From an uncultured Hyphomicrobiales bacterium (GTDB taxonomy: Bacteria; Pseudomonadota; Alphaproteobacteria; Rhizobiales; Beijerinckiaceae), in contig CAIOVE010000007.1 of assembly GCA_903861645.1 (NCBI GenBank), positions 1 to 64,000 on the forward strand: a DNA stretch of 64,000 bases. Direction: 5' to 3'. Each line of letters opens with the position of its first letter. Positions within the stretch are counted from its first letter, which is position 1. A model generated the notes under the pieces. The model was not told the DNA's origin. It saw nothing but the letters and a program-made list of their open reading frames with translations, and made no database searches. Positions 14,769 to 21,851 of this stretch are shown one piece after another. A program made the position numbers and the translations under genes.

Positions 14769-15977
14769 CTACACCAGAAACGAATTTGGCGTCGACTCGC
14801 GTGGGCGCCCAAATTTCGGGGATTTCGCCGTCATGGCGCGCATCACGTCCGATGCGACGAGTTCGCCCAGCGCGACCGGCACCGCGTTGCCGAGCTGGCG
14901 CATGGCCTCGCTCCACGCGCCATGGAACACGTAGTCATCGGGGAAGGTTTGCAGCCGGGCGCTTTCGCGCACGGTGAAATAGCGGAAGGTTCCATCCGGC
15001 CGCGCCAGCATGTTCTCGCCGCCGGGAACCCCGTGAACGCCTGCCTTGAGCGTCTTGGCGGGCTCGTCGAGCGGACTGCCGGTATGGCCGGGGTAGGCGC
15101 GCGCACCCGGCTGGAAGCGATGATTGGCGAAGGCCGCGGCCTTTTCGGGCGCGAATTCCGGATCTGGCAGATCGCCGATGGCGTCGCGCACGGTGCGCCA
15201 CGCCCGCGTTGGCGGCGCGGCGTCGATCCGCTCGCCAAGGGCCGCCATGCGGGGCGTCGGCCGCCGCTGGCGCGACGCGACGCGGTGTTGGTCCCAGTAA
15301 TCGCCTTTCGGTCGCTGCGCATGGGCCAGCGCCTCGACCGAATGCGTTGGAGCGGGAAACTCCCATTCGACGCCGAGATCGGCGCGGAAGCCGACGAAGA
15401 ACACCCGCTCGCGCCTTTGCGGCACGCCGTAATCGGCCGCGTTGAGAATTTGCGGCGGCAGGACGTTGTATTCCGGCGATTTGCTCGCGTGCCGCCGTTG
15501 CAGGCGGGCTTGGTGGTCGCTCCAGTCCTCGTCCGGGCGGCGTGGCAGGCCCGGGTGCTGCAATTGCAGGTGGATATAGTTGCGATAGGGCGCGAAGCCC
15601 GCGCGCATCAGACCCTTCACGTTCTCGAAGATGAAGGCCCGCGGGCTTGTTTCCCTGATCACGCGGACCGCCTGCGGCCACATATCGCGATCGTCAAGGA
15701 AGGCGCGATGCTTGCCGCCGAGCGAAAACGGCTGGCAGGGCGGGCCGCCCGCCACGAGGTCGATGGCGCCGAGATGTTCGGCGAAGTTCAGCGGGCGGAT
15801 GTCTCCCTCGATGGGGGCGGGCCAGTGGGCCAGCGGGCTTGTCCGGCGGGCGCGGTTCTCGCGGATCGTGTCGCAACACCAGCGGTCCCATTCGACGATC
15901 GCCGCTGGCTGGAAGCCCGCGCGGCTCACGCCCATGGCGAGACCGCCGGCGCCGGCGAACAGTTCAATCGAAATCAT
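14769..15977 (-). CDS. dcm: DNA (cytosine-5-)-methyltransferase
   Basis: A 402-residue C5-cytosine methyltransferase from the ATG at 15977, which overlaps the vsr stop as ATGA and gives the usual N-terminus directly before motif I (ELFAGAGGLAMG). Motif IV GGPPC81QPFSLGGK carries the catalytic cysteine; motif VI FENVKG, motif VIII QRRERVFFVGF and the C-terminal motifs RLQTFPDDY and QLGNAVP are all intact, so it should be active. The target-recognition region (about 165-300) does not tell me the site. No restriction enzyme gene is adjacent; pairing with vsr indicates a Dcm-like solitary enzyme or a degraded restriction system. Confidence 0.93.
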   Translation of the reverse strand: MISIELFAGAGGLAMGVSRAGFQPAAIVEWDRWCCDTIRENRARRTSPLAHWPAPIEGDIRPLNFAEHLGAIDLVAGGPPCQPFSLGGKHRAFLDDRDMWPQAVRVIRETSPRAFIFENVKGLMRAGFAPYRNYIHLQLQHPGLPRRPDEDWSDHQARLQRRHASKSPEYNVLPPQILNAADYGVPQRRERVFFVGFRADLGVEWEFPAPTHSVEALAHAQRPKGDYWDQHRVASRQRRPTPRMAALGERIDAAPPTRAWRTVRDAIGDLPDPEFAPEKAAAFANHRFQPGARAYPGHTGSPLDEPAKTLKAGVHGVPGGENMLARPDGTFRYFTVRESARLQTFPDDYVFHGAWSEAMRQLGNAVPVALGELVASDVMRAMTAKSPKFGRPRESTPNSFLV

Positions 15978-16396
15978 GCGGGATCCCGGAGAAACCGGGC
16001 GATTCGGTTGCGCATGCGGTCGATATTGCCCAACTGGCACTCCCAGACAACCAGCGTTTTCCAGCCCGCGCGGGCCAGCGCGCGGCGGTTGCGGGCGTCG
16101 CGCTTGCGGTTGCCCTCGAGCTTCGGGAGCCAGAAGTCGAGGCGGGTTTTCGGCAGGCGCGCCAGCTTGCAGGTCTTGGCCGCGTGCCGATGCCAGAAGC
16201 AGCCGTGGACGAAGATAGCCTTGCGCTGGCCGGCGAAAACGAGATCGGGCTTGCCCGGCAGTTTCGCGCCGTGCAGGCGATACCGGTAGCCGAGCGCCGT
16301 CGCCATGCCGCGGACCGCCTTTTCGGGCGCGGTGTGCTTGCCGGCAATGCGCGCCATGCGGGCGCTGCGTTCGGCGGGGGTCAAGGTGTCGGCCAT
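15974..16396 (-). CDS. vsr: very short patch repair endonuclease Vsr
   Basis: A 140-residue protein of normal Vsr length. It has the family segments TPAERSARMARIAGKHTAPE near the N-terminus, KPDLVFAGQRKAIFVHGCFWH with the metal-binding Asp, Cys and His positions, and WKTLVVWECQL near the end. Vsr nicks 5' to T in T:G mismatches created by deamination of 5-methylcytosine, protecting the sites methylated by its partner. Translationally coupled to the methyltransferase gene downstream. Confidence 0.93.
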   Translation of the reverse strand: MADTLTPAERSARMARIAGKHTAPEKAVRGMATALGYRYRLHGAKLPGKPDLVFAGQRKAIFVHGCFWHRHAAKTCKLARLPKTRLDFWLPKLEGNRKRDARNRRALARAGWKTLVVWECQLGNIDRMRNRIARFLRDPA

Positions 16397-16417: not shown

Positions 16418-16810
16418 TCAGACGCCCAGTTCGTCAAACAGCGCGGCGGCTTCCTTGAACGCGTGGTTGGCGGCGGGCACGCCCGCGTAAACCCCGCATT
16501 GCATCAGGATTTCGCCGATTTCGCTCTTGGTGAGGCCGTTGTTGAGCGCGCCGCGCAAATGCAGGCGGAACTCGTCCCAGTGGCGCAGCGCCACCGTCAC
16601 GCTCAGCACCACCACCGAGCGGGTTCGCAGGTCCAGTCCCGGACGGCGCCAGACGTCGCCCCAGGCCGTGCGGACGATCCAGTCCTGGAAATCGCGAGAA
16701 AAATCCGTGGTGCGCGCGATCGCGCCGTCCACGTAGGCGTCGCCAAGAACCTGGCGCCGGCGTTTCATGCCGCCGGCGTGGCGGGTCTCGTCGTCTTCCC
16801 GTTCGCTCAT
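16418..16810 (-). CDS. pcaC: 4-carboxymuconolactone decarboxylase
   Basis: A 130-residue AhpD-like fold protein that matches PcaC over its length (GLDLRTRSVVVLSVTVALRHWDE, LNNGLTKSEIGEILMQ, CGVYAGVPAANHAF). PcaC decarboxylates 4-carboxymuconolactone to 3-oxoadipate enol-lactone in the protocatechuate branch of the beta-ketoadipate pathway. ATG at 16810 overlaps the pcaD stop by four bases, so substrate and product enzymes are coupled. The other pca genes are not in the window. Confidence 0.92.
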   Translation of the reverse strand: MSEREDDETRHAGGMKRRRQVLGDAYVDGAIARTTDFSRDFQDWIVRTAWGDVWRRPGLDLRTRSVVVLSVTVALRHWDEFRLHLRGALNNGLTKSEIGEILMQCGVYAGVPAANHAFKEAAALFDELGV

Positions 16811-18060
16811 CGGCGGGCCTTGCCCTTGCGCGCCGTTTTTTTCGTGGGGGCCTTTTTGGCCGGGCTCTTCTTCGGCGCGGCTTTTTTCACGACCGCCTTT
16901 TTGGCCGACTTGCCAACGGCCTTTTTCGGCGCGGCCTTTTTGGCCGTCTTTTTCGCGGCTGATTTCCTGGCGGGGCTTTTTTTGGCGGCGGGTTTCCTTG
17001 GGGCCGCTTTTTTAGCCGGGGCCTTTTTGGCCGCGGCCTTTTTCGCTGGGGCCTTTTTGGCCGCGGTCTTCTTCGCCGCCGGCTTCTTCCTCGCGGGCGC
17101 CTTCGCGGCGACGGGCGCCGCCTTGGGCTCGGGCGCCTTCACGACGGGGGCGGGCGCGGGGGCTGGCGGTGGGCTCTTCTCCACGCGGACGAGCCTGAGC
17201 GACTTGGGTCGCGCGGGCGCGGCGGGGGCAGGGGCAGGCGTCGTTTCGGCGGGAGCCTCTACGGGCGCGCCCACCGGCTTGCCGGTCAGGAAGGCTATGA
17301 CCGCGTTGGTGAAGGCTTCCGCCTTCTCGACGTTCGACATATGAGCCGCGTCGAGTTCGACGACGCGGGCCCCGGGAATGGAGGAGGCGATCAGGCGGCC
17401 ATCGCCGGGCGTGGCGGCGGGATCGTGAGCGCCAACGATCACCAGCACCGGCTTGCGAATGGAGCGGATCGACTGACGCTGGTCCATGTCGCGGATCGCC
17501 AGACAGCAGGCGGCGTAGCCGTGGCCGGGCGTCCGCGCGATCATGTCGCTGATTTTTTCCATGATTTCGGGGTTTTTCGCCCGGAATTCAGGCGTGAACC
17601 AGCGTTGCAGCGTGCCATCGACCAGCGACAGCATGCCCTGTTCACGGGCCGCTGTGGCGCGAGCGTTCCAGATGTCGGCGGCGGCGCCCATGTAGGCCGA
17701 GGTATTGGCGAGCACCGCGCGGACAATGCGGGCCGGCGCGTTGGCCAGCAGCCATTGGCCGACCATGCCGCCCTTGGAGAGCCCGACCCAGTGGGCTTTT
17801 TCCACGCCCAGCTTGTCGAGAATGGCGAGCGCGTCGCGGCCCAGCTTCTCGATCGTGTAGGGGCCTTCGTCGGCGGGGCTCGCGCCGTGACCGCGCGAAT
17901 CGTAGCGAATGACCCTGAACACCTTCGTCAGCTCGGGCATCTGCGGATCCCACATCCGCAGGTCCGTGCCTAGGGAGTTGGACAGCATGAGGACCGGCGC
18001 CTCGCGAGGGCCGTCGACAGCGACATTGAAATGCTCGTCACCAATGCGAATGTGAGCCAT
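16807..18060 (-). CDS. pcaD: 3-oxoadipate enol-lactonase with histone H1-like tail
   Basis: A 417-residue fusion-like protein. Residues 1-260 are a complete alpha/beta hydrolase of the PcaD family with nucleophile S95 (GLSKGG), acid D213 and H240; it would hydrolyse 3-oxoadipate enol-lactone to 3-oxoadipate. Residues 261-310 are a Pro/Ala linker and 311-417 consist almost wholly of Lys, Ala and Pro in PAKKA/AAKK units, as in histone H1 C-terminal domains and bacterial H1-like proteins. The tail is in frame with no sign of a second start, and pcaC begins within its stop. Typical PcaD is about 260 residues. The tail could bind DNA, RNA or other polyanions; its purpose here is unknown. Confidence 0.88.
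   Translation of the reverse strand: MAHIRIGDEHFNVAVDGPREAPVLMLSNSLGTDLRMWDPQMPELTKVFRVIRYDSRGHGASPADEGPYTIEKLGRDALAILDKLGVEKAHWVGLSKGGMVGQWLLANAPARIVRAVLANTSAYMGAAADIWNARATAAREQGMLSLVDGTLQRWFTPEFRAKNPEIMEKISDMIARTPGHGYAACCLAIRDMDQRQSIRSIRKPVLVIVGAHDPAATPGDGRLIASSIPGARVVELDAAHMSNVEKAEAFTNAVIAFLTGKPVGAPVEAPAETTPAPAPAAPARPKSLRLVRVEKSPPPAPAPAPVVKAPEPKAAPVAAKAPARKKPAAKKTAAKKAPAKKAAAKKAPAKKAAPRKPAAKKSPARKSAAKKTAKKAAPKKAVGKSAKKAVVKKAAPKKSPAKKAPTKKTARKGKARR
16810..17130 (-). repeat. coding low-complexity repeat (Lys/Ala/Pro tail)
   Basis: Degenerate tandem units of about 15-30 bases encode the AKKAPAKKA-type tail of the enol-lactonase (residues 311-417). On the plus strand it reads as runs of GCCTTTTTGGC. 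The repetition makes this stretch prone to length change by slippage. Confidence 0.8.
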
Positions 18061-18297: not shown

Positions 18298-18750
18298 ATG
18301 GCCATGACGATGAAGGGGGAGGTCGCCCTTCCCGCCGACCGCCAGACGGTCTGGGCGAAGCTGAACGATCCGGAAGTGCTGAAGGCCTGCATTCCTGGTT
18401 GTCAGTCGCTTGATAAGACAGGTGAAAATGGCTTTTCAGCCGTGGTGAAGCTGAAGGTCGGGCCGGTTTCGGCGACCTTCAAGGGTAACGTCGAGCTCTC
18501 GGATTTCGATCCGCCGAACAGCTACAAGATCAGTGGCTCGGGCGAGGGCGGCATCGCTGGCTTCGCCAAGGGCGGCGCCGTGGTGCATCTGGCGGACGCG
18601 GAAGGCGGCGGCACGCTGCTGACCTATGACGTCGAGGCCAACGTGGGCGGCAAGATCGCCCAGCTTGGCGCGCGCCTGATCGATGGCGTCGCCAAGAAGA
18701 ACGCCGATACGTTCTTCGCCAATTTCGCCGAGAACGTTAAGGCTGGCTGA
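18298..18750 (+). CDS. coxG: CoxG-like SRPBCC protein
   Basis: A 150-residue protein that matches carbon monoxide dehydrogenase subunit G (GEVALPADRQTVWAKLNDPEVLKACIPGC and GEGGIAGFAKGGAVVHL). CoxG proteins have a START-like pocket and are linked to membrane attachment of, or quinone delivery to, CO dehydrogenase. This one ends with the SRPBCC domain and lacks the C-terminal membrane anchor of longer CoxG proteins. AGGAGAGG lies just upstream of the ATG. A strong terminator follows, so it is probably a separate transcript from coxSLM. Confidence 0.9.
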   Translation: MAMTMKGEVALPADRQTVWAKLNDPEVLKACIPGCQSLDKTGENGFSAVVKLKVGPVSATFKGNVELSDFDPPNSYKISGSGEGGIAGFAKGGAVVHLADAEGGGTLLTYDVEANVGGKIAQLGARLIDGVAKKNADTFFANFAENVKAG

Positions 18751-19484: not shown

Positions 19485-21851
19485 ATGAGCGTGACCGGCA
19501 TCGGCGCTTCCGTTCGCCGCAAGGAAGATGTTCGTTTCGTAACCGGCAAGGGTCGCTACACCGACGACATCAATCGTCCGGGGCAGGCGCACGCGTATTT
19601 CCTGCGCTCGCCGCACGCGCACGCCACGATCAACAACATCGATCTGTCGGCCGCGCTCAAGATGCCCGGCGTGGTCGCCGTCTATACCGGCGACGACATC
19701 GCCGCGGACAAGGTCGGCGGCCTGATCTGCGGCTGGATGATCCATTCCAAGGATGGTTCGCCGATGAAGGCGGGCGCGCATCCCGCATTGGCGCAGGGCA
19801 AGGTGCGCTATGTCGGCGATCACGTCGCCGTCGTCATCGCCGACAAGCTTTCGCAGGCGCGCGACGCGGCCGAGAAAATCGTCGTGGATTACGGCGTACT
19901 GCCGGCCATTGTCGATCCCGCCATGGCGGTCGGCGCCGACGCGAAAATTCACGACGCCGCGCCCGACAACACCGTTTACAACTGGCATCTTGGCGACAAG
20001 GCGGCGACGGACGCGGCTTTCGCCCGCGCCGCGCATGTCACGCGGCTCGATCTTGTCAACAACCGGCTTTCCCCCAACGCCATGGAGCCGCGCGCGGCCG
20101 TAGGCGATTACGACGAGGGGACGGATGGCCTGACGCTCTATACGACGAGCCAGAATCCGCACGTCGCGCGTCTGGTCCTGTCGGCCTTCATCGGCCTCGC
20201 GCCCGAGCACAAGTTCCGCGTCATCGCGCCGGATGTCGGCGGCGGTTTCGGCTCGAAAATTTTCATCTACGCCGAGGAGACGGTGTGCGTCTGGGCGGCG
20301 CGCAAGGTGCGCCGGCCGGTCAAGTGGACGTCCGATCGCACCGAGGCGTTTCTTTCCGACGCCCATGGTCGCGACCACGTGACCCATGCCGAACTGGCGC
20401 TCGACGCCTATGGCAAGATTCTCGGCTTGCGCGCGCACACGACGGCCAATCTCGGCGCCTATCTCTCGACCTTCTCGTCGAGCGTGCCGACCTATCTCTA
20501 CGCGCCGCTGCTGTCGGGCCAGTACGATATTCCGGCCATCTACGCCGAGGTCGACGCTGTTTACACCAACACGGCGCCAGTCGACGCCTATCGCGGCGCG
20601 GGCCGCCCGGAGGCGACCTTCGTGGTCGAGCGCCTGGTCGAGATCGCCGCGCGCGAAACCGGCAAGGATCCCGCCGCGTTCCGACGGCAAAATTTCGTCA
20701 CCAGCTTCCCGCATCAGACGCCAGTCATCATGTGCTATGACGGCGGCGATTATAACGCGTCGCTGACGAAGGCGCTGGAGATCGCCGACTACGCCAACAT
20801 CGGCAAGCGCAAGGCCGAGGCGGCGAGCCGCGGCAAGCTGCGGGGCATCGGTATTTCCGCCTATATCGAGGCTTGTGGCATCGCGCCCTCCGCCGCCGTC
20901 GGCTCGCTCGGCGCGGGCGTTGGCCTCTGGGAATCCGCCGAGGTGCGGGTGAACCCGATCGGCACCGTCGAAATTCTCACCGGCTCGCACAGCCATGGGC
21001 AGGGCCACGAAACGACCTTCGCCCAGCTCGTGTCGGAGCGTCTCGGCGTGCCGATCGACAATGTCGCGATCATCCACGGCGACACCGACAAGGTGCAGAT
21101 GGGCATGGGCACCTACGGCTCGCGCTCCGGCGCCGTGGGCATGTCGGCCATCGTGAAGGCGCTCGACAAGATCGAGGCGAAAGCCAAGAAGGTCGCGGGT
21201 CACTGCCTCGAGGCGTCGCCCGACGACATCGAGTTCAAGGACGGCAAGTTCACGGTGAAGGGCACGGACAAGTCGATTGATTTTCCATCGGTCGCCTTGC
21301 AGGCCTATATCGCGCACAAGTTCAACGGGCAGGAGCTCGAACCCGGCCTGAAGGAAAGCGCCTTCTGGGATCCGACGAATTTCACCTTCCCCGCGGGCGT
21401 CCATATCTGCGAGCTGGAAGTCGACCCGCAGACGGGCGTCACGACCATCGTCAAATGGACGGCGGTCGATGACTTCGGCAATCTCATCAATCCGATGATC
21501 GTCGAGGGTCAGGTGCATGGCGGTATCGCGCAGGGCGTGGGGCAGGCTTTGTTCGAAGGCGCCGTTTACACAAAGGACGGCCAGCTCGTGACGGCGAGTT
21601 TCATGGATTACCAGATGCCGCGCGCGGACAATCTGCCCTCCTACAATATCGCGATCACCAAAACGCCGTGCCCGTCGAACCCGTTGGGCATCAAGGGTTG
21701 CGGCGAGGCCGGCGCCATCGCCGCGCCGCCCGCCGTGATCAACGCGCTGACGGACGCGCTCGGCCACGAGGATATCGCCATGCCCGCCAGTCCGCTGGCG
21801 GTGTGGCGCGCGGCCCGAAAGACCATGGCCATGAAGAAGGCGGCCGAATGA
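19485..21851 (+). CDS. coxL: form II CO dehydrogenase-type large (molybdenum) subunit
   Basis: A 788-residue molybdopterin cytosine dinucleotide-binding subunit of the xanthine oxidase family. The active-site loop reads A368-Y-R-G-A-G-R374, the form II signature; genuine aerobic CO dehydrogenases (form I) carry AYxCSFR with the copper-binding cysteine. E741 in KGCGEAG is the conserved catalytic glutamate. Form II enzymes have uncertain substrates: weak CO oxidation has been reported for some, while others probably oxidise aldehydes or heterocycles. Lies between coxS and coxM, each with its own ribosome site (CAGGAGTGG here). Confidence 0.94.

Follow-up and report, generated by a model that had tools for sequence, protein, structure and literature searches.

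The window, the whole 64,000-nucleotide stretch of DNA that was analyzed, encodes a PcaD-type alpha/beta hydrolase whose reading frame continues into a strongly basic, histone H1-like C-terminal tail. Each part is of a known kind, and it is the combination that is new. Among the matches listed from the open-license PMC literature, we found no publication on a PcaD-type enzyme with such a tail, and the lysine-rich bacterial tails described in the excerpts consulted belong to DNA-handling, ribosome-related, or granule proteins. Relatives carrying the tail fall into a single clade, which fits one old gain followed by retention in most members.

We propose that a PcaD-type lactone hydrolase would long ago have acquired this disordered, polycationic extension and that most of one Rhizobiales clade (Beijerinckiaceae-like) would have kept it because it binds an intracellular polyanion, most likely nucleoid DNA, with polyphosphate as the alternative. 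The tail would thereby hold the enzyme, and perhaps a PcaC-like partner where one is present, at the polyanion site. We give this tethering role, with the nucleoid as the favored target, about an even chance.

A hydrolase core and a basic tail in one reading frame

The tailed gene (16807..18060, minus strand) is a single uninterrupted open reading frame (ORF) of 417 codons that begins with ATG and has no internal stops. Residues 1 to 260 (17281..18060, minus strand) form the PcaD-type core, assigned by its TIGR02427 match, its fold match to PDB entry 2xua, and its conserved columns. The window protein has 157 residues beyond the core. Residues 261 to 310 (17131..17280, minus strand) make up a linker rich in Pro (15 of 50 residues) and Ala (12 of 50) that is without secondary structure in the predicted model. 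The H1-like tail, residues 311 to 417 (16810..17130, minus strand), was delimited by composition, lysine periodicity, and low pLDDT. Its 37 Lys, 36 Ala, and 13 Pro account for 86 of 107 residues, and with 6 Arg the net charge reaches +42. The core has a net charge of 0 and a pI of 7.1, versus a pI of 12.0 for the tail. The preliminary description, according to which the PcaD core is complete by residue 260 and is followed in the same open frame by a linker and an H1-like tail, was thus borne out.

The same description had the pcaC gene starting inside the stop codon of the tailed gene, as we also found. The start codon of a gene for a PcaC-like protein of the carboxymuconolactone decarboxylase family (16418..16810, minus strand; PF02627, 79.5 bits) lies within that stop, in an ATGA overlap. 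This ORF scored 146.3 bits with the PcaC model TIGR02425, under the cutoff of 155.7, and its product has a pI of 6.4. Because the frame is uninterrupted, translation of the tail is likely.

The core matches PcaD in sequence and predicted fold

Residues 15 to 259 matched TIGR02427, the NCBIfam model for 3-oxoadipate enol-lactonase, with 296.6 bits, above the equivalog cutoff of 255.85. In an AlphaFold2 model built from 31 aligned sequences, the core was confidently predicted and superposed on the enol-lactonase 2xua with an rmsd of 1.2, a TMt of 0.96, and 47% identity. No helix or strand was predicted beyond residue 258, where block-mean pLDDT was 43 to 61 (50 to 59 in the tail itself). Ser95, Asp213, and His240, which from motifs and the general features of the family we take to be the catalytic triad, occupy columns that are identical in all 33 pcaH-linked sequences. 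Among the tailed loci, Ser95 is retained in 31 of 32, and Asp213, His240, Trp131, and Arg134 are each retained in 32 of 32.

As a broader reference, we took the columns in which at least 94% of the 33 pcaH-linked sequences agree, 37 in all. The commonest residue of the tailed set departs from that of the pcaH-linked set at one of these columns. Some columns drift within the tailed set, namely Asn28 (20/32), Ser29 (21/32), Ile201 (21/32), and Cys186 (22/32), and the window protein has Thr at position 217 in place of the common Pro. Taken together, sequence, predicted fold, and catalytic residues fit PcaD.

The gene order, PcaD and then PcaC, is that of the fused PcaDC proteins described by NF051488. 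An identity as such a fusion was rejected because the window protein scored 274 bits against a cutoff of 390 and because the PcaC-like protein is encoded by a separate ORF; here, in contrast to the fusion, there are two overlapping genes, the first of which bears a basic tail.

Genomic context makes a beta-ketoadipate pathway role doubtful

The preliminary description had called the protein a beta-ketoadipate pathway enzyme. A PcaD-type catalytic domain is indeed present, but the assignment to the pathway is weakened by the genome. In the window's genome, which is listed as 100% complete, PcaH was not detected at an E value of ≤1e-30 and CatC had no match at an E value of ≤0.001. Two intradiol dioxygenases were present, both scoring far under the catechol and protocatechuate cutoffs, and there were two further TIGR02427 matches besides the tailed gene. 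A PcaB-like lyase (G000:C68, L217:7233-8942) scored just above its NCBIfam cutoff and lies on another contig than the tailed gene; a CoA-transferase gene is nearby, and the neighbors do not read as pca genes.

The same situation prevails among relatives. PcaH was present in 7 and absent in 19 of the 26 genomes with a tailed gene, the window's included. CatC was found in 2 and any intradiol dioxygenase in 13 of 26 tailed genomes; these two counts, like those for PcaB and pcaH linkage, cover the tailed genomes other than G076 and G144. A pcaH gene lay within 15 kb of the tailed gene in none of 25 tailed relatives, although contig breaks may mask some linkage. In G096 and G003, the tailed gene and pcaH are each at least 36 kb from contig ends. 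At the same distance, pcaH accompanied PcaDC fusions in 18 of 36 cases and tail-less sequences with less than 44% identity in 14 of 22. It accompanied only 1 of 26 tail-less kin with at least 44% identity, the sole linked sequence being L101.

The tailed gene is thus a PcaD paralogue unlinked to pcaH, a property that it has in common with its tail-less kin. Because those kin are also mostly unlinked, the separation from the pca cluster either predates the gain of the tail or came about independently of it, and nonlinkage cannot be counted as an effect of the tail. A place in the protocatechuate or catechol branch was not found for the gene. A beta-ketoadipate role is therefore what the sequence suggests and what the genome makes doubtful, and annotation as PcaD in this group does not imply that pathway.

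The tail recurs in frame among relatives

A TIGR02427 match at an E value of ≤1e-40 was found in 125 of 149 genomes of the same family. We collected 72 loci with relatives of the core from a public genome collection; 7 had an in-frame Lys-rich tail, including the five closest (82, 74, 72, 69, and 65% identical). The addition of 30 loci from the TIGR02427 search and 80 further stretches, a subset of the matches listed, gave 182 loci. Their C termini comprised 32 tails, 36 PcaDC fusions, 112 without any extension, 1 cut by a contig end, and 1 Arg-rich continuation. These counts refer to loci rather than species because some tail-less loci are common to both collections (e.g., L066/L101 and L057/L136). 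Two of the 32 tails, those of L112 and L161, remain in frame up to the point where the contig ends.

Eight stretches added later contained two more tails, for a total of 34 of 190 relatives. With L009 and L109 treated as one record, the window is joined by 33 distinct tailed loci. Core identity to the window among the tailed loci ranges from 82 down to 47%. In a genus mate, G139, the TIGR02427 match that was retrieved is a tail-less paralogue with 37% identity. The search for Lys-rich extensions that the preliminary description had proposed was accordingly positive, and the frame disruption between linker and tail that it had named as a possible refutation was not seen; the five closest relatives are all in frame. 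With the in-frame tail present in 33 other distinct loci, an assembly or frame artifact was rejected.

Two other kinds of C terminus were observed. In L183 (G064), the frame continues for 239 residues with 26% Arg and 8% Lys, which may be chance read-through or another type of tail. In L128, L135, L161, L173, and L175, an acidic, Glu-rich linker precedes the Lys-rich tail, and an intramolecular charge clamp is possible.

A single gain with later losses fits the tree

A maximum-likelihood tree was obtained by a quick search on 176 cores, with 7 of 183 rows (the 182 loci plus the window) omitted as duplicates or as shorter than 200 residues. The tail label required 3 changes on this tree, compared with a mean of 29.8 for shuffled labels; none of 500 shuffles was as low. 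One clade of 35 rows holds all 32 tailed rows, the window among them, together with 3 tail-less ones. This distribution fits one gain and two losses within the clade. Because the SH-aLRT support of the clade, 92, is under the 95 mark, we take a single origin as the most economical interpretation and not as proven. The preliminary description had also raised the accidental acquisition of a lysine-rich protein end; the pattern fits instead a single old gain kept by most of the clade.

The three tail-less rows of the clade are L019, L024, and L154. Across 600 bases downstream of each, none of the three forward frames has more than 5 Lys per 30 residues. A tail concealed by a frameshift was therefore rejected, and the loss appears to have left no local trace. 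That these three rows do without a tail also indicates that it is dispensable. The probable single gain on a small-molecule hydrolase lets tailed and tail-less forms be compared in nature, given the three rows without a tail that trace to two losses and the many tail-less sisters, which would make testable whether metabolic enzymes are positioned on DNA or polyphosphate in bacteria.

Lysine spacing persists while tail sequence drifts

Counted with the linker, the extension beyond the core is 75 to 312 residues long in the relatives, with a net tail charge of +18 to +77. In 32 of 33 tails, the spacing of Lys doublets at 4 to 5 residues was more pronounced than in any of 500 shuffles (z of 3.7 to 11.2); the 33 include the window and count both L009 and L109. 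The exception is L166 (z of −0.7). The period is 4 in some subclades and 5 in others, and in the window's tail it is about 5. The DNA of the window's tail has a weak 15-base periodicity, with 57% identity at lag 15. It is not a pure repeat, because its Lys codons alternate between AAA (18) and AAG (19). In L009/L109, an obviously recent expansion of a KSAAK unit is present.

These features bear on an alternative that we consider unlikely, in which slippage of repeats at the gene's 3′ end would have produced a low-complexity Lys/Ala extension that is neutral or under weak selection, has no specific partner, and is tolerated. The wide range of lengths, the KSAAK expansion, the weak DNA periodicity, and the three clade rows that lack a tail would all be in keeping with such an origin. 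It accounts less well for a tail whose frame stays open across 33 further distinct loci as core identity falls from 82 to 47%, for doublet periodicity that persists in 32 of 33 tails despite differing sequence and period, and for the alternating lysine codons. Selection on charge spacing acting on a drifting repeat would give the Lys-doublet pattern; slippage combined with weak selection may also give it.

Comparison with H1-like and other lysine-rich proteins

The tail, strongly basic and predicted to be disordered, resembles the Lys/Ala-rich Pfam family HC2 (PF07382) and matched it over residues 317 to 412. The score of 37.0 bits is under the gathering cutoff of 40, so membership in the family is not supported. 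At an E value of ≤0.001, HC2 matched 7 of 31 aligned members. For the whole window protein, Pfam at a threshold of 0.001 returned only hydrolase-type families and HC2-like composition; the N-terminal helical granule or phasin domain of AlgP and PhaF was not among the matches. An HC2 search of the window's genome gave two matches, both under the cutoff, namely the window's own tail and a different Lys/Asp/Pro protein. No Lys-rich ORF of at least 100 residues was found in L214. Counts of Lys-tailed proteins elsewhere are lower bounds, as scoring covered 150 of 411 candidates in one scan and no more than 150 per genome in a second.

Standalone H1-like proteins also occur in these bacteria. On contig C41 of the window's genome, L216:1396-1854 (plus strand) encodes a Lys/Ala protein of 113 residues, counted from an inner ATG, with a pI of 12.0 and no Pfam family at 0.001. 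Standalone H1-like proteins of relatives lie at L226:1498-1839 and L228:1318-1881, and in three genomes (the window's, G009, and G045) such genes adjoin a putative gatB. Those of G009 and G045 scored 32.1 and 50.9 bits with HC2, against the cutoff of 40. G009 further encodes a 366-residue protein (L235:1420-2520, plus strand) in which an N-terminal HC2-like segment (56.3 bits, above the cutoff) precedes the C-terminal domain of malate synthase (PF20659, 59.5 bits; cutoff, 23.1). This fusion gene adjoins one for a putative glycolate-oxidase-like iron-sulfur subunit. The tailed PcaD gene is thus not the only one in which an H1-like module accompanies a metabolic domain.

In architecture, the protein resembles AlgP and PhaF of Pseudomonas, whose disordered C-terminal Lys/Ala/Pro repeats are strongly basic according to an excerpt of their description (PMC9239181). 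There the repeats are of the KPAA type and follow a helical or granule-associated domain, whereas here they are KKxxx or KKxx and follow an alpha/beta hydrolase. In actinobacteria, topoisomerase I (TopA, PMC7398561) and the HU-type proteins HupB (PMC5676037) and HupS (PMC11229371) are likewise reported to end in a domain of lysine repeats. Those proteins act on or package DNA, while the core here is a small-molecule hydrolase.

The tethering role that we favor is proposed by analogy with AlgP/PhaF and with lysine-rich polyphosphate binders, as these appear in the excerpts of PMC9239181 and PMC12077175. In its favor are the in-frame tails of relatives and their place on the tree, the Lys-doublet spacing, the net charge, the standalone H1-like protein of the window's genome, and a lysine density in the window's tail equal to that of polyphosphate-positive proteins. 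Against it stand the missed HC2 cutoff, the lack of a Pfam match for the standalone H1-like protein, the three tail-less rows of the clade, the clade support of 92, the aperiodic tail of L166, the drift at Asn28, Ser29, and Cys186, and a longest lysine run of 2 in the window's tail. A wider form of the proposal, which we hold as tentative and somewhat improbable, is that Beijerinckiaceae-like bacteria would generally dock metabolic enzymes to the nucleoid or to polyphosphate by means of H1-like tails. Its clade-wide case would be the tailed PcaD paralogue and a second, independent one the malate synthase fusion, and the tailed hydrolase would act off the beta-ketoadipate pathway on another lactone or ester at the docking site.

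That polyphosphate rather than DNA is the target, with starvation-linked, noncovalent docking to granules as for AlgP or lysine polyphosphate modification proteins, seems to us improbable. The portion of PMC12077175 consulted describes polyphosphate as bound by lysine-rich stretches, and the window's tail, with up to 9 Lys in 20 residues, equals two of its positives, EngA and SrmB. An excerpt of PMC9239181 reports that the similar tail of AlgP is required for granule spacing. The polyphosphate-positive proteins in the former source have four lysines in a row, however, and no such run is present in the window's tail.

Neighborhood of the tailed gene

In the window and several tailed relatives, the tailed gene is divergent from a cluster of CoxG-like and molybdenum hydroxylase genes. 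In the window, these include a putative CoxG-like gene (18298..18750, plus strand), conserved in position in several tailed relatives and without an NCBIfam family at 1e-10. They also include a CoxL-like gene for a molybdenum hydroxylase large subunit (19485..21851, plus strand), assigned from synteny and from NF041018 (663.3 bits) and TIGR02416 (636.3 bits), both scores being under the cutoff. On the other side, a PcaC-like gene and then putative branched-chain amino acid transporter genes follow the tailed gene. Another part of the clade has other neighbors (e.g., a putative RadC-like gene), with no PcaC-like gene in the flank.

It is very unlikely that the tail serves the enzyme itself as an adaptor for charge or solubility, assembling PcaD into oligomers or with a mildly acidic PcaC-like partner where relatives have the covalent PcaDC fusion: the pI values of the PcaC-like protein and the tail, a PcaC-like gene immediately after the tailed one at 12 loci of 32 (11 distinct), and the frequency of the fusion in the family (36 of 182 loci) suit such a role, but no PcaC-like gene was found in the flank of the other 20 of 32 (some flanks being short or ended by the contig), and 58 of 112 tail-less relatives have a PcaC-like neighbor without needing a tail.

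Between the pcaC-like gene and livH, the window also contains genes for a putative cytosine-5 DNA methyltransferase and a Vsr-like mismatch endonuclease (14769-16040 and 15974-16396, minus strand). The Vsr-like gene is found at this place in L005, L006, and L007 as well; in L028 and L132, livH directly follows pcaC.
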